Shown in pieces: positions 23,938 through 30,193 of a stretch of DNA of 37,362 nt. Origin of the DNA: a virus; IMG/VR virus record IMGVR_UViG_3300011114_000249, positions 1-37,362 of that record, one strand, 5' to 3'. The position numbers and the translations under genes were made by a program. The notes under the pieces were generated by a model. It searched no databases. It had not been told where the DNA came from and was given only the letters and a program-made list of their open reading frames with translations. Each line of letters opens with the position of its first letter. Within the stretch, counting starts at the first letter, position 1.

Positions 23938-23966
23938 TTGACAAAGTAAAGAAAGTATGCTATAAT
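23938..23966 (+). promoter_or_regulatory. Rightward promoter P4, perfect sigma70 consensus
   Basis: TTGACA (23938-23943), exactly 17 bases, then TATAAT (23961-23966). Immediately after the -10 a dyad, GGAC-GTTA-GTCC (23967-23978), spans the predicted start (about 23973). Confidence 0.92.
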
Positions 23967-24040
23967 GGACGTTAGTCCATGTGGTGTTGTTCAGCCGCAT
24001 GGATGAGGGGGATCCCCCCGGTTAACCGTAAAACTTTTAC
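23967..24040 (+). promoter_or_regulatory. Structured leader of P4
   Basis: In order: dyad GGACGTTAGTCC over +1; stem TCCATGTGG/CCGCATGGA (23976-24003, 10-base loop); GGGGGATCCCCC; CGGTTAACCG; palindrome site 5. The dyad and the first stem share GTCC and cannot form together in RNA. The P5 leader has the same order with changed but matching bases. Confidence 0.7.
24028..24040. promoter_or_regulatory. GTAAAACTTTTAC palindrome, site 5
   Basis: An exact copy at the end of the P4 leader, 13 bases before the ATG at 24054. Confidence 0.87.
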
Positions 24041-24752: not shown

Positions 24753-24843
24753 TGATTGCGAATGGATCAATGCGGCACCTGCCGGTGCTTTTAGGAGTTA
24801 TCTGATGATTGCGAATGGATCAATGCGGCACCTGCCGGTGCTT
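24741..24843 (+). repeat. Exact 50-bp tandem duplication at a gene junction
   Basis: The 50 bases at 24741-24790 recur exactly at 24794-24843, separated by TTA (period 53). The unit spans the ribosome site, the stop/start overlap TGATG and the first codons of the next gene. Because 53 is not a multiple of three, the first start now reads into a 17-residue frame (24752-24805) that stops at the second TGATG. Confidence 0.95.
24752..24805 (+). CDS. 17-residue leader-like ORF created by the duplication
   Basis: MIANGSMRHLPVLLGVI: the first 13 residues copy the start of the next gene, the end copies the C-terminus of the previous one. Stop and next start overlap (TGATG), so it passes ribosomes on to 24805. 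It may be a non-functional by-product or a coupling peptide. Confidence 0.4.
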   Translation: MIANGSMRHLPVLLGVI

Positions 24844-25662
24844 CACAACTTTGACGCGATGGAGCGCACGTACAACAGCATTGTGCCGATACGGGGCACA
24901 AACGTGCGCCCGTTGGGTAGACGCCCAGACCACAAGCGGTATGCCATCGAGAAGCGTAGCGACACGCAGTACGTGTGTACGTTGTACGGACACCCCGTAA
25001 TTTCTTATACAAAGGAGACATACCCGGGGCAGGGTACGCTCGGTGAGATTAGCCTGTGTGGGTTCGACACGCGCACCACGCGCGGTTTTATATCACGGGT
25101 AGTCGGTGCCGACTGCTATAGCTTCAACAATAAAACCTACATCGAGGTGGGCAAGCGGGTCAGTGAGGTCGACGGCAGGATGAGAGTCACGGGGGCATAT
25201 TACTTGCCGCCGAACCATGTGCTGCAGATACGTCACGACAAGGTGCTCAACCCTGTGCCTGTCACGAAGCGAGTCATCGACCGTGAGATTACAAAAGAAC
25301 TTCGTGTCCAGTACAAAGAGGAGATGCTCACCGCTGAGTCCATGTTGCGTCTAGGACCGGCGAAGTCTAGCGAGGGTTACATCCCACGCGCGAAGGAGTC
25401 CTACTACCGGATGCAGTTCATGACTGATCTCACGAGCGAGGAGATGACTGAGTACCTGTGGCTAATCGCGGGAAGAGTGTACGAAAAAAATCGTATACAA
25501 GTGCAGAAGAATAGGTGGGTGCCGGGGCAGGGCTTCAAACCCATAGGTGAATTCATCCCTACGTACCGCAGCTACGTGGTCAACGCGCTATACGAGATCG
25601 CAGAGAGTGATGCCGTAGATATTTACAAGGGGGTGGAGATGCCCGTCGGACAACGGGGGTAA
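24805..25662 (+). CDS. Hypothetical protein, 285 residues
   Basis: It starts at the ATG in the second copy of the duplicated junction (MIANGSMRHLPVLHNFDAME). It is a soluble mixed alpha/beta protein with basic patches (RPLGRRPDHKRYAIEKRS; TKRVIDREITKELRVQYKEEM) and no membrane segment. I see no catalytic motif and know no family. It is the last gene of the P4 unit; promoter P5 follows 29 bases after its stop, with no terminator between. Confidence 0.72.
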   Translation: MIANGSMRHLPVLHNFDAMERTYNSIVPIRGTNVRPLGRRPDHKRYAIEKRSDTQYVCTLYGHPVISYTKETYPGQGTLGEISLCGFDTRTTRGFISRVVGADCYSFNNKTYIEVGKRVSEVDGRMRVTGAYYLPPNHVLQIRHDKVLNPVPVTKRVIDREITKELRVQYKEEMLTAESMLRLGPAKSSEGYIPRAKESYYRMQFMTDLTSEEMTEYLWLIAGRVYEKNRIQVQKNRWVPGQGFKPIGEFIPTYRSYVVNALYEIAESDAVDIYKGVEMPVGQRG

Positions 25663-25691: not shown

Positions 25692-25720
25692 CTTGACAAT
25701 GTACAGAAAATATGTTATAA
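25692..25720 (+). promoter_or_regulatory. Rightward promoter P5, perfect sigma70 consensus
   Basis: TTGACA (25692-25697), 17 bases, TATAAT (25715-25720), with the shared ATGTACAG at the start of the spacer. A dyad GAAC-GTA-GTTC (25721-25731) spans the predicted start (about 25727). It drives the ATPase/VWA operon. Confidence 0.93.
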
Positions 25721-25782
25721 TGAACGTAGTTCATGTGGCGTTGACATGAACCGGGGGGAGTTCCCCGAACGTAAAACTTTTA
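25721..25782 (+). promoter_or_regulatory. Structured leader of P5
   Basis: Same order as in P4: dyad GAACGTAGTTC; 8-bp stem GTTCATGT/ACATGAAC (25728-25750, 7-base loop); CGGGG/CCCCG; palindrome site 7. The paired bases differ from P4 in a compensating way (GAAC/GTTC against GGAC/GTCC), which supports selection on the structure. Confidence 0.72.
25770..25782. promoter_or_regulatory. GTAAAACTTTTAC palindrome, site 7
   Basis: An exact copy at the end of the P5 leader, 16 bases before the ATG of the MoxR-like gene. Confidence 0.87.
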
Positions 25783-25798
25783 CACAACAGAGGAAATC

Positions 25799-26875
25799 AT
25801 GAGTCAGATCAATCTTTCAAACAAGACCGTATCCCTGCAAGAAGCTGCCCGTCTGATCGAAGCGGTAGGTACTAGCGTCACCATCATGTTGCAAGGCGAG
25901 CCGGGGATCGGTAAGTCCAGCATCCTGAAGATGATGAGCGACAAGACTGCGGACGGCGAGACCCGCGTCAAGTCCTACATAGATGTTACCAACCTTGACC
26001 TCGGTGACATTGCGATGCCGTGGATCAACAAAGAGGCGGGGTGCACGCACTACGTGCCCAACGCTAGGTTCGGATTGCATACTGGTGGGCCGGTGCTGTT
26101 GATGCTCGACGAGTTGAGCAAGGGTCCCGACGCCGTGCAGAACATGCTACTGCCTCTGTGCTTAGAGCGCCGCATGGGTGAGAAGAAGAACCACAAGCAT
26201 ACGATTATCTTTGCAACGGGCAACCTGTCCGGTGACGGGGTGGGCGACAAGCTCAAGCCTCATGCGATGAATCGCTTCACTGTCGTCAAGGTTCGCAAGC
26301 CTACGGCAGCGGAGTGGATCGAGTGGGGTATCGCCAACGGCATAGTGCCCGAGGTGTTGGCAGCAGTTAAGCAGTTTCCCGACTGCATGGCGAGCTATCA
26401 AGATGGTGACTCTCAGAAAGAGAACACCATGATCTATCACCCGACCAAGGCAGTGCAGGCGTTCACCTCCCCACGCTCGCTAGAAAAAGCCAGCGACATC
26501 GTGCGTCAGCGTCGCGTGATCGGTGATGATGCGATGGAGGCCGCTCTTATCGGTACGGTGGGTGCGACGTTTGCTCAGCGCTTGATGACGTTCTTGCATG
26601 TAGCAGATCAACTGCCGCAGCGTGAGCACTATCTTACCAACCCGGACACTTGTCCCGTACCCACCGACCCTATGGCTCTGTGCATGTTGGTGTTCAGCGC
26701 CGTGTCGTGGGTCGAGCGTAAGGACATGGACGCATGGATGAAGTACCTGCAGCGGTTCTCCAAAGAACATCAGGCTTTGTTCTGCACCGGTATCTGGAAT
26801 TCCCCTAAGCAGGGGATGGCGGCAACCTGCCGTCCGTTTGTTGACTGGGCGCGGGTCAACAAGTACATCCTGTGA
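25799..26875 (+). CDS. MoxR-type AAA+ ATPase
   Basis: This encodes 358 residues. Walker A GEPGIGKS (33-40), Walker B VLLMLDE (99-105), sensor-1 ATGN (139-142) and a candidate arginine finger in AMNRF (about 159) are all intact. The C-terminal 190 residues are helical. MoxR ATPases act as chaperones that load cofactors into, or remodel, partner complexes together with a VWA-domain protein; exactly such a partner is encoded next (26931-28142). It is translated from GAGG ahead of the ATG, with a long structured leader. In a phage, targets could be a virion or host protein; this is open. Confidence 0.88.
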   Translation: MSQINLSNKTVSLQEAARLIEAVGTSVTIMLQGEPGIGKSSILKMMSDKTADGETRVKSYIDVTNLDLGDIAMPWINKEAGCTHYVPNARFGLHTGGPVLLMLDELSKGPDAVQNMLLPLCLERRMGEKKNHKHTIIFATGNLSGDGVGDKLKPHAMNRFTVVKVRKPTAAEWIEWGIANGIVPEVLAAVKQFPDCMASYQDGDSQKENTMIYHPTKAVQAFTSPRSLEKASDIVRQRRVIGDDAMEAALIGTVGATFAQRLMTFLHVADQLPQREHYLTNPDTCPVPTDPMALCMLVFSAVSWVERKDMDAWMKYLQRFSKEHQALFCTGIWNSPKQGMAATCRPFVDWARVNKYIL

Positions 26876-26881
26876 GTTTAC

Positions 26882-26894
26882 GTAAAACTTTTAC
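26882..26894. promoter_or_regulatory. GTAAAACTTTTAC palindrome, site 8
   Basis: An exact copy in the 55-base gap between the ATPase and the VWA gene, directly followed by the hairpin at 26898. Confidence 0.87.
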
Positions 26895-26897
26895 AAC

Positions 26898-26913
26898 GGG
26901 GACGCAAGTCCCC
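26898..26913 (+). promoter_or_regulatory. Leader hairpin before VWA gene
   Basis: GGGGAC-GCAA-GTCCCC: a 6-bp stem with a GCAA tetraloop, 17 bases before the ATG. Like the P4 and P5 leaders, it pairs a G/C stem with the 13-bp palindrome, here inside an operon. Confidence 0.75.
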
Positions 26914-26930
26914 AACAACTGGAGAGAGTG

Positions 26931-28142
26931 ATGGTTAAAGACTTAACCGTAGAGCAGCGTGTCGAGCGTTCGCACGTGCAGCTTATGAAAGACAAGCGGT
27001 TCGTGCGCTGGTCTGGTCTGTTCATGATCGGTAAGGTGGAGGTGTGCGATCACGTGCCCACTGCGTGTACCAACGGGCGCGACGTATGGTATGGGCGTGA
27101 GTTCTGTGAAACTCTTAGTGAGAAGGAGCTTAACTTCGTGGTCATGCACGAGAACATGCACAAGGCGTACCGTCACCTCACGACGTGGAAGCACTTGTTC
27201 AAGGAAGACCCTCGCTGCGCCGGTGCTGCCTGTGACTACGTCATCAACCAGCAGCTAGTCGACTATGACCCACACGCGTCTCTAATCCAGATGCCGTCCG
27301 ACGGTCTGATCGACGAAGAGTATCGGGGCATGGACACCCAGCAGGTGTACGACATTCTCCGCAAGAAGAAGAAAGAGAAGGGCAAGGGTCGCAAGCCGGG
27401 GGACCAGCCATGCAAGGGTGATGGGGACAGTGACGGACCCAGCGGATTCGATGAGCATGACTTCGAAGGGGCACAACAACTTGACGAAGAGGAAAAGAAA
27501 GCACTGGAACGACAGATCGGTGACGCGTTGCGTCAGGGCGGCATGTTGGCAGGTAAGCTCGGAGCCGACGCGGACAAGCAGTTCGACGAGCTTGTCGACC
27601 CCAAGGTTGACTGGAAGGAAGTATTTCGTCAGTGGTGCAAGGCAGTGGCGGCAGGGCGCGACCGCTCTACATGGCGCAAGCCCAACCGTAGGTTCCTGCA
27701 CGAGGACATCATCATGCCTAGCATGGAGAGTGTCACCCTCGGGCGCGTTGTCGTAGCCATCGACACTTCGGGGTCTATCGGTAACACTGAGCTTGCTGAA
27801 TTCTTTTCAGAGCTTGTCGCTATCTGTACTGACGTGTCTCCTGAGTGCGTTGACTTGCTGTACTGGGATACCAAGATCGCAGCGCACGAGGTGTACTCGC
27901 AAGACATGCTCGGGTCTATCGTGCAGACAACTAAGCCCAAGGGTGGTGGCGGCACTAACCCCGACTGTATTCCTACGTATGTTAAGAAGGAACGTATGGA
28001 CCCCGTGTGCGTGGTCGTCCTGACCGACGGGTATATCGGACATTGCAAGGAGGAACTATGGATGGGTCTCGCGCCGACGCTCTGGGTAGTAACGCAGAAC
28101 AAGGGGTGGACGCCCCCGTACGGTCAGTCAGTCAACATGTAG
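26931..28142 (+). CDS. Metallopeptidase-like plus VWA domain protein (DUF2201 type)
   Basis: This encodes 403 residues from the ATG at 26931 (GTG at 26928 is also possible; GGAGAG upstream). The N-terminal domain has HENMH (73-77), an HExxH zinc motif, followed by ACDYVINQQL (100-109), as in DUF2201 N-terminal putative metallopeptidases. A charged linker (about 145-195; KKKKEKGKGRK) leads to a VWA domain with a complete metal site: DTSGS (278-282), the Thr in GGGGTNPD and TDG (365-367). Bacterial relatives sit next to MoxR ATPases, as here. The pair probably works as a chaperone or protease machine; the substrate is unknown. Confidence 0.85.
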   Translation: MVKDLTVEQRVERSHVQLMKDKRFVRWSGLFMIGKVEVCDHVPTACTNGRDVWYGREFCETLSEKELNFVVMHENMHKAYRHLTTWKHLFKEDPRCAGAACDYVINQQLVDYDPHASLIQMPSDGLIDEEYRGMDTQQVYDILRKKKKEKGKGRKPGDQPCKGDGDSDGPSGFDEHDFEGAQQLDEEEKKALERQIGDALRQGGMLAGKLGADADKQFDELVDPKVDWKEVFRQWCKAVAAGRDRSTWRKPNRRFLHEDIIMPSMESVTLGRVVVAIDTSGSIGNTELAEFFSELVAICTDVSPECVDLLYWDTKIAAHEVYSQDMLGSIVQTTKPKGGGGTNPDCIPTYVKKERMDPVCVVVLTDGYIGHCKEELWMGLAPTLWVVTQNKGWTPPYGQSVNM

Positions 28143-28174
28143 AGAGGTACGAAGAACACACAAGAGAAGAACTT

Positions 28175-28318
28175 ATGGCGTTGCTTGCTCTGTCAGGCAT
28201 GGAGCTGGAGTACATCGACGAGGTGGCTCTGCTCCGTGTCACAGGGCACAACTGTGATCCATCATCAGCATTGCTTAAATCCCTTTTACGTAAAACTTTT
28301 ACAAACAACGAGAGCTAA
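28175..28318 (+). CDS. Small protein between VWA gene and next gene
   Basis: This encodes 47 residues from the ATG at 28175 (MALLALSGMELEYIDEVALL). The same frame is open upstream, and an ATG at 28058 with AGGAGG just before it would give 86 residues overlapping the end of the VWA gene by 85 bases; which start is used cannot be settled by eye. The last codons (LLRKTFTNNES) are made by palindrome site 9. No family is recognised. Confidence 0.5.
   Translation: MALLALSGMELEYIDEVALLRVTGHNCDPSSALLKSLLRKTFTNNES
28290..28302. promoter_or_regulatory. GTAAAACTTTTAC palindrome, site 9
   Basis: It overlaps a second palindrome (TTTTACGTAAAA, 28284-28295). It lies 18 bases before the ATG at 28321 while encoding the end of the small upstream gene. 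Confidence 0.85.
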
Positions 28319-28320
28319 TC

Positions 28321-29199
28321 ATGAATCAGATCATCACTAACTTCGGCCCATCCATTGCATCCAGCGCCATGCTGGTCAACCTGAGCGTGGGTAACTGGAC
28401 GGCACGCAAGCTCGACCGCAAGGTCAGCGAGGACGTGGACAGGCAGAACAACACGCAGGGCCGTGCGGGTAACTACCACAAAAACTTATTGGCAGGTGCA
28501 CATCGACTTGACCTGATCAACAAGTTCGTAGCGAACACGCGCAACCGTCACTATCACCTGACCCTGCCGTGGGCAGACACCGGCCCCCGCTTGCTTCCGA
28601 TGAAGCGGTTCTTCGACTACAAGGCAGAAGCAGATTCGTGGATTGCCAAGTACAACGAGATGAAGAAGGAGTTCCTTGTCGAGTACCCGACCATGGTATC
28701 GGCGGCGGCGTTTCAACTCGGCAGTATGTTTGACCGCAACGAGTACCCCGAGGCTGAGCAGTTGGACAGAAAGTTTTACATGGAGATCAACTTCTGGCCC
28801 GTGCCAGAGACGGGGGACTTCCGTGTCGACTGTGAGATGGAGATTCGTAACGAGCTTAACGAGAGCTATCGTCAACTGTACGACAAGCAGGTAGCCACTG
28901 CGATGGGCGATGCGTGGTCACGCTTGCATGGGGTGCTCAAGCACATGGTCGACCGGCTGACTGATGAGGAGGAAGGGGATCGCAAGATCTTCCAATCATC
29001 CATGATCGACAAAGCCAACGAGCTTATCGACACGCTCGACAGTATGAACATCACCAACGACACCCAGTTGGAGAACGCGAGGGCATCCCTTGCTGCTGCG
29101 CTTGCCGGTATCTCTGTAAAAGATTTACGGGAGAGCAAAGCTGTACGCCACGATGTTCGTACGCAGGTCGAGGACATTCTCAACAAGTTCGCATTTTGA
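28321..29199 (+). CDS. Hypothetical protein of the ATPase/VWA operon (possibly DUF3150-like)
   Basis: This encodes 292 residues. A helical protein: LVNLSVGNWTARKLDRKVSEDV near the start, NFWPVPETGDFRVDCEMEI in the middle and a long helical C-terminus (VEDILNKF at the end). The pattern, with a LxxLxVxxWxGRKxD-like start, reminds me of DUF3150 proteins that occur beside MoxR/VWA genes, but this is recollection, not a search. Its place directly after the VWA gene suggests a substrate, adaptor or third component. A one-mismatch version of the palindrome lies within it (29116-29128). Confidence 0.65.
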   Translation: MNQIITNFGPSIASSAMLVNLSVGNWTARKLDRKVSEDVDRQNNTQGRAGNYHKNLLAGAHRLDLINKFVANTRNRHYHLTLPWADTGPRLLPMKRFFDYKAEADSWIAKYNEMKKEFLVEYPTMVSAAAFQLGSMFDRNEYPEAEQLDRKFYMEINFWPVPETGDFRVDCEMEIRNELNESYRQLYDKQVATAMGDAWSRLHGVLKHMVDRLTDEEEGDRKIFQSSMIDKANELIDTLDSMNITNDTQLENARASLAAALAGISVKDLRESKAVRHDVRTQVEDILNKFAF

Positions 29200-29215
29200 T
29201 ATCAGGAGAGAGAGC

Positions 29216-30193
29216 ATGACTATCATTCACAAACCGAACAACAACATATACTTCACCCTCAAAGTCCTGCAGCAGCACGGGGTTGAGCGGGTGGCCGAGG
29301 CCATCTACGAAGAGTCTGGACTCAAGATGAAGGAGCCCATAAAGTGGCTTCTCGATGCGATGCGCGTCACGTACAAAGACCCTACGATTTACTTCCTCGC
29401 AAAGCGGGGGCAAGCTGTCGAGGTCATACAAGCAGGTGTCTCCATGGGTACGCTTGACGTGTTCACACCGAGCGGCGACGTGCGTAGTGCGGTCCAAGCA
29501 GAGGTGTCGAGCGACCTGATCAAGAACAGAAAGGCTCCCACCAACAGCAAGCGTTCGAGCACGAGAGCTAAAGCTGAGAAGCTGGTAGAACTTTTACACT
29601 ACTACAACCCTGCTGAGTATGCTGAGAAGTTGTTCAGTATGGGCGAGTGGAACCTCGGCAACCTAATCAAAAAGTCTGTACCCGTAGACTCTATTGTTAA
29701 GACTATGAGTGATCTAGTTCGTAGACTGCATTACTCGGATGACTACGCGTTTCTGGCTAGGCTCATGCGTAGCTCGCCAGCCCCGGGGGATCAAGAACAG
29801 ATAAAGAGTTATCTTGATTCGTATGATTTGTTCCGAGACAAACAGTACGAGCAGCAGTGTCTAAAAAATGTTTTAGTGATGCTGCAAGTTCTGCCGCCGG
29901 GCATACCCAACATGTATCGGATGGTCACGGCTACACGCAATGCGGTGGGCACTACACCACACGAGTACTCTTTTACTACTAGGGATATCCCTAGTATGGA
30001 AGCTCTTCCAGACGTGATACAAAGTAAGCTCGCGCTGTTGCAGTTGGGTTCAGAACCGTCCGCTCACATGGTCGGGTATCAAGACAAAGGCGTTTGTCGC
30101 TGGCTCAGCTTCTACGGCTTAATTGGCGAAGACTTAGGAGAGATGCTTGACACCGGAAGGGAAAGTAAAGAGGGAGGTGACTCGCTACCTTGA
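29216..30193 (+). CDS. Hypothetical protein, end of ATPase/VWA operon
   Basis: This encodes 325 residues from the ATG at 29216, with CAGGAGAG upstream; the frame is open to 29153 only as overlap with the previous gene. Mostly helical, with a basic linker (KNRKAPTNSKRSSTRAKAEK, about 104-123) between two globular parts. No motif is recognised. A palindrome with one mismatch (29585-29597) lies inside. Its 3' end overlaps the VRR-NUC gene by 47 bases. Confidence 0.7.
   Translation: MTIIHKPNNNIYFTLKVLQQHGVERVAEAIYEESGLKMKEPIKWLLDAMRVTYKDPTIYFLAKRGQAVEVIQAGVSMGTLDVFTPSGDVRSAVQAEVSSDLIKNRKAPTNSKRSSTRAKAEKLVELLHYYNPAEYAEKLFSMGEWNLGNLIKKSVPVDSIVKTMSDLVRRLHYSDDYAFLARLMRSSPAPGDQEQIKSYLDSYDLFRDKQYEQQCLKNVLVMLQVLPPGIPNMYRMVTATRNAVGTTPHEYSFTTRDIPSMEALPDVIQSKLALLQLGSEPSAHMVGYQDKGVCRWLSFYGLIGEDLGEMLDTGRESKEGGDSLP

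Follow-up and report, generated by a model that had tools for sequence, protein, structure and literature searches.

A survey of jumbo phages describes a MoxR AAA+ ATPase paired with a vWA protein that carries a fused metallopeptidase domain at its N-terminus, and its passage on this pair proposes a role in virion assembly (PMC7824862). The genes gp24 and gp25 of phage N4 are listed among the core genes of N4-like phages (PMC7650795). Relatives of ORF101-103 of the plasmid pCAR1, of which ORF101 and ORF103 were published as MoxR and VWA genes, have been reported on IncH, IncT, SXT and R391 elements (PMC2642839). Here we analysed the complete IMG/VR virus record IMGVR_UViG_3300011114_000249 of an uncultured phage (37,362 bases, referred to as the window), which encodes a MoxR ATPase and a metallopeptidase-VWA protein in a plus-strand module together with a DUF3150-family protein and two fast-evolving, phage-specific proteins, g285 (285 amino acids) and g325 (325 amino acids). 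The ATPase and VWA pair is already known, while the set of five families is new and we found no description of it in the sources searched. We favour, with odds slightly better than even, the interpretation that the module encodes a phage AAA+ machine, expressed early, that remodels or processes its targets and has DUF3150 as its third subunit.

Independent scans of uncultured viruses yielded 80 loci for the DUF3150-like protein, 41 for g325, 25 for g285 and 35 for the VWA protein. The neighbourhood profile searches were merged into 107 non-redundant components, including 42 internal loci, in which the module lies at least 3.5 kb from both contig ends. MoxR, VWA and g325 are found in all 42 internal loci, DUF3150 in 41 and g285 in 31; no internal locus has g285, g325 or DUF3150 but lacks MoxR and VWA. 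The components without MoxR or VWA are all close to contig ends, and a separate scan found g285 solely beside MoxR/VWA, except on cut contigs. All five families occur on one strand in 56 components, within a span of 5.1-7.7 kb. Their order is DUF-MoxR-VWA-g285-g325 in 20 of the 56, g285-MoxR-VWA-DUF-g325, as in the window, in 17, MoxR-VWA-g285-DUF-g325 in another 17 and MoxR-DUF-VWA-g285-g325 in two. The initial annotation of the window had proposed a phage operon, which we confirm, and it had left room for its unknown genes being unrelated to MoxR/VWA loci elsewhere; the presence of g325 (42/42) and DUF3150 (41/42) shows that they are linked to such loci. Each gene it listed lies at, or very close to, the place it gave. 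Its upstream boundary needs correction, as g285 at 24805..25662 belongs to the module too.

The ATPase (25799..26875, 358 amino acids) matches the Pfam family AAA_5 (7.4e-6) and phrog_1297 'ATPase' (2.7e-52). Its Walker A motif is GEPGIGKS, its Walker B motif is LLMLDE, and neither the key Walker residues nor the arginine residues vary among 72 relatives. By sequence, its nearest relatives of solved structure are the AAA domains of Midasin (1.7e-6). The fusion protein (26931..28142) matches DUF2201_N, described in Pfam as 'putative metallopeptidase domain' (1.8e-25; 90.5 bits, cut-off 23.2), the VWA-like domain DUF2201 (2.5e-18; 66.8 bits, cut-off 26.4) and phrog_1314 (1.9e-89). Counted from a GTG at 26928 it has 404 amino acids, although the in-frame ATG at 26931, right after GGAGAG, is the likelier start. 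In the numbering from the GTG, the HENMH motif comprises residues 74-78 and the metal ion-dependent adhesion site (MIDAS) is complete with D279, S281, S283, T343 and D367 (DTSGS, T, TDG). The HExxH and MIDAS residues are invariant in 78 of 78 VWA relatives. Thus the initial annotation was right about both an ATPase with intact Walker motifs and an HENMH metallopeptidase-like domain joined to a VWA domain with a full metal site. Among cultured-phage records searched with tblastn, 684 contain the VWA protein and 474 the ATPase; they include Schitoviridae, in which the two proteins correspond to N4 gp24/gp25. The pair is therefore present in hundreds of phage records. PHROGs labels phrog_1314 'HNH endonuclease', and many GenBank entries for phages give the VWA protein that name as well. 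Since Pfam and the motifs point to a metallopeptidase-VWA protein, the name seems to be an error passed on from record to record.

The 292-residue protein at 28321..29199, the third core component, had been called possibly DUF3150-like, and its relatives place it in that family: PF11348 is matched (best 1e-6) by 14 of the 20 relatives in an alignment whose members share 25-91% identity with the window protein. Searching solved structures by sequence gave no useful match for this protein or for the VWA protein. DUF3150 is named in none of the literature searched, so any role for it would be new.

DUF3150 is also found with MoxR and VWA outside phages. Plasmids of Burkholderiales and Rhodovastum carry DUF3150 homologues (1e-49 to 1e-67) alongside MoxR and VWA genes that are homologous too, and in two of four inspected plasmids the triad is located directly ahead of type IV secretion genes. 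In the Simplicispira case, several genes separate MoxR from DUF3150 and VWA on the plasmid. The order is DUF-MoxR-VWA in Pseudovibrio, with DUF4942 and a sliding clamp nearby, and MoxR-VWA-DUF in Chitinophaga, with a tyrosine integrase and a PIN_8 gene nearby. The triad without g285 and g325 is seen in three arrangements on plasmids and in bacteria. The gene between ORF101 and ORF103 of pCAR1 is DUF3150 (8.3e-92), and an exonuclease, ssb and RecT are encoded near this triad. The pCAR1 ATPase is a NorQ-type MoxR with a CbbQ/NorQ C-terminal domain, and the VWA protein, named NorD-like, has HECSH and MIDAS motifs and belongs to a different subfamily from the phage one. DUF3150 therefore partners MoxR and HExxH-VWA proteins in two subfamilies. 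The presence of the triad on phages and conjugative plasmids points to what may be an unrecognised machine of several kinds of mobile DNA. The SXT literature searched contained no deletion phenotype.

Neither g285 nor g325 was detected in the plasmid and isolate loci examined. In four bacterial genome contigs from metagenome-assembled or uncultured bins (L192-L195), genes next to the core do match g325 or g285; these contigs perhaps stem from phages and were binned together with bacterial sequences. Two further observations concern the bacterial loci. Two unrelated bacteria have DUF4942 genes close to the triad (Pseudovibrio L197 11728-15488 and the Simplicispira plasmid L087 819-2702), and in L197 the clamp gene nearby is that of the DNA polymerase III beta-clamp. 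The Chitinophaga triad (L198 2697-8834) is located beside the PIN_8 nuclease-like gene and is perhaps part of an integrative or defence element.

All module genes are under purifying selection, with ratios of nonsynonymous to synonymous substitution rates (dN/dS) of 0.06-0.46, but they differ in rate. In comparisons of the window with its close relatives, identity is 82-96% and dN/dS 0.06-0.13 for MoxR, VWA and DUF3150, much as for the polymerase and exonuclease, compared with 47-65% identity for g285 and 48-60% for g325, both with dN/dS of 0.24-0.46. Averaged over the 56 full loci, identity is 46-50% in the core families and 21-22% in g285 and g325, which evolve at about 3-5 times the rate of the core. 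In no module gene does dN/dS exceed 1. In g285 a motif around YxxIxPIRGTxxRPLGxR is conserved; g325 (29216..30193) was identified as a partner by profiles and co-occurrence. Distant assignments of both families depend on iterated profiles, and g325 relatives that were missed with the window protein alone as query were recovered with subfamily alignments. No g285 or g325 was found in 50,697 cultured phages with two representatives as queries, nor with the window g325.

AlphaFold2 models were confident for a g285 relative (L026, pLDDT 89.8) and a g325 relative (L068, pLDDT 90.4). The identity of the modelled relatives to the window's own proteins is about 17% for g325 and 21% for g285, so the carry-over of the models to the window proteins rests on profiles. 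Comparisons with solved structures by Foldseek and VIA-align turned up no convincing match to g325 (best Z 4.7) or g285 (best Z 3.7); this is a missing match and no proof of a new fold. Predicted viral structures with E <0.001 to either protein are only uncharacterised phage proteins. The speed of change and the lack of a recognisable solved fold suggest that g285 and g325 may be specificity factors or clients, although weaker constraint could also cause their divergence.

In many relatives the C-terminal domain of g325, of about 80 residues, is duplicated as a separate gene of 87-159 residues directly downstream of g325 (for example L080 12172-12546 and L054 13330-13797). In the Synechococcus phage MinM2 (L001 11182-13124) two unknown genes of 300 and 346 amino acids follow the VWA gene, at the position occupied by g285 and g325 in phages with the MoxR-DUF-VWA order; no sequence similarity of these two genes to g285 or g325 was detected.

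A sigma-70 consensus promoter (TTGACA-17-TATAAT with TG ahead of the -10 element, 25693..25721) precedes the ATPase gene and is conserved in the related contigs L007 and L009. It is followed at 25729..25767 by a leader that folds into two hairpins, GUUCAUGU/ACAUGAAC and CGGGGG/UCCCCG, with a z-score of only -1.4. The stems covary: they change compensatorily between the copies and the relatives (L007 2223 and 4122; L009 2721 and 5229). The initial annotation had taken this promoter and structured leader as dedicated regulation of the module. They are present as described but are not special to it. The window contains three perfect promoter matches (23938, 25693 and 35690; chance expectation 0.02), and those at 23938 and 25693 are near-identical and have a common two-hairpin leader (23938-24040 and 25693-25783), which occurs twice in the relatives as well. 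We therefore rejected a dedicated promoter. The repeated promoter and leader may stabilise or regulate early mRNAs.

The 13-bp near-palindrome GTAAAACTTTTAC at 25771..25783, 5' of the ribosome-binding site, recurs at 26882 and 28290 within the module. Exact copies of GTAAAA(C/G)TTTTAC number ten (21844, 22793, 22945, 23843, 24028, 25771, 26882, 28290, 30390 and 34413), all within the plus-strand gene half and several directly 5' of ribosome-binding sites. With up to two mismatches on both strands, 30 copies were observed versus 0.93 expected. L007 and L009 have 10-12 copies; there are fewer than two in loci that lie outside the group nearest to the window. The element is possibly a regulator site or an RNA element. 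Given the repeated promoter and leader and the near-palindrome, the module is one of several similarly controlled units.

The plus strand of the record encodes, besides the module, an Hjc-like gene, DNA polymerase A and a PD-(D/E)XK exonuclease, while terminase, portal and capsid-like genes are on the minus strand. Two neighbouring 303-residue proteins of the head region showed no paralogy. Close relatives' contigs reach about 61 kb, which makes it probable that the record is a fragment. Its largest open reading frame, of 792 amino acids, encodes the portal protein; nothing larger is present, such as the giant virion RNA polymerase that is a trait of the Schitoviridae, although the record may be a fragment. 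Within the module, the 47-residue protein at 28175..28318 was found by tblastn only in the nearest relatives, being 70-89% identical in four contigs, and its dN/dS of 0.25-0.38 indicates purifying selection.

As judged from the sequences, the five families are co-inherited and the ATPase, metallopeptidase and MIDAS sites are intact. We propose that MoxR would form a hexamer on which the VWA domain docks with a loop reaching into the pore, by analogy to NorQ-NorD and Midasin; cryo-electron microscopy of NorQD provides a mechanistic precedent (PMC13036017). ATP hydrolysis would then twist the VWA protein, as in these analogues, and the N-terminal HExxH domain could process the bound target or aid metal insertion. 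DUF3150 would be the adaptor or scaffold of the core, and g285 and g325 would be dedicated partners that match the core to each phage and its host, acting either as target adaptors or as clients. Our guess is that the target is not the virion but a host or phage protein complex of early infection that serves DNA metabolism, transcription or defence: the promoters are of host type, the operon lies in the half of the genome that holds the replication genes, and DNA-processing and transfer genes stand by the plasmid core.

Several points weigh against this interpretation. The window's 292-residue protein itself has no match to PF11348 at E up to 1 and stays below the Pfam cut-off. DUF3150 is detectable in only three cultured phage records versus 684 with the VWA protein, so it is dispensable in some phage MoxR/VWA systems. 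Furthermore, 32 of the 56 five-family loci have in common an upstream gene of about 512 amino acids, taken as the large terminase on position and strand, and 35 a DNA polymerase. This suggests one broad phage lineage; the loci are thus not independent events and vertical inheritance accounts for part of the linkage of g285 and g325, although the shuffled gene order would argue against purely vertical inheritance. Moreover, the early timing is read from promoters and position, and complex formation and activity are predictions from sequence and comparison.

Among the alternatives, it is possible, though we doubt it, that the triad builds conjugation machinery on plasmids and a replication or recombination complex in phages. 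The type IV secretion genes, sliding clamp, exonuclease, ssb and RecT near the triad fit this, and the authors of the pCAR1 study suggested a transfer role (PMC2642839), but the neighbouring genes vary and no Chitinophaga neighbour examined is of such a kind. Rather doubtful is a counter-defence or host-takeover protease, with g285, g325 and DUF3150 bringing host proteins to the HExxH domain. The fast evolution of g285 and g325, the occurrence of the core in phages, plasmids and an integrase-bearing locus and the invariant HExxH would agree with it. However, their fast evolution may reflect relaxed constraint, and PADLOC, which covers defence rather than counter-defence and was searched without a VMAP model, gave nothing useful beyond weak ATPase matches.

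We consider it unlikely that the module is a virion-assembly chaperone, in which MoxR-VWA with its protease domain matures structural proteins and g285 and g325 are assembly factors. The passage on the jumbo-phage pair proposes this for the same architecture, with p618/p892 of Acidianus two-tailed virus as a precedent (PMC7824862), and chaperones may be produced early. Against this, the module lies with replication-type genes on the strand opposite the head genes, and g285 and g325 match no structural family convincingly. The core is also present on plasmids, which have no virion, and a virion-only role is therefore less favoured. Host-type promoters and replication-type neighbours make us lean towards takeover or DNA metabolism over virion assembly, without deciding between them. 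In the CobN-CobS-CobT cobaltochelatase the large chelatase subunit has about 1200 amino acids, and no such subunit was found near the module. A metal-cofactor insertion machine like NorQ-NorD or CobS-CobT is thus very improbable, since neither a metalloenzyme client nor a chelatase large subunit was recognised, despite the NorQ- and NorD-like features of the pCAR1 proteins.

Beyond the module itself, we advance as a speculative extension that MoxR, HExxH-VWA and DUF3150 form a general machine of three subunits in mobile elements (phages, conjugative plasmids and integrative elements). It would have been assembled on two or more occasions, each time with a different MoxR/VWA subfamily, and the phage would have added the rapidly evolving g285 and g325 as specificity subunits, steering it early against host proteins. 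The confidences given to the alternatives overlap because the general model of a remodelling machine fits several of them. With DUF3150 as a recurrent third component that conjugative plasmids have as well, and with two phage partners that evolve fast, the vague label 'chaperone' becomes a defined, testable complex.

The jumbo-phage pair (group 2.2; PMC7824862) has the same two-gene architecture, with the metallopeptidase N-terminal to the VWA domain. The passage describing it does not mention DUF3150, g285 or g325, and the phage analysed here is not known as a jumbo phage. p618/p892 is likewise a viral MoxR-VWA pair but, according to the same source, has no peptidase domain; it is assigned to tail development. 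The vWA-MoxR-VMAP ternary conflict systems (PMC7159879) combine MoxR, VWA and a third partner as here, although that partner is VMAP with effectors instead of DUF3150. N4 gp24/gp25 of the Schitoviridae are homologous to the ATPase (phrog_1297) and the VWA protein (phrog_1314), whereas the two genes between ATPase and VWA in the Schitoviridae member Pectobacterium CB1 are not detectable DUF3150 homologues. Finally, pCAR1 ORF101-103 belong to distant NorQ/NorD-type MoxR and VWA subfamilies, lack g285 and g325 and have a middle gene left unnamed in PMC2642839, but they place MoxR, DUF3150 and HExxH-VWA side by side, like the core of the phage module.

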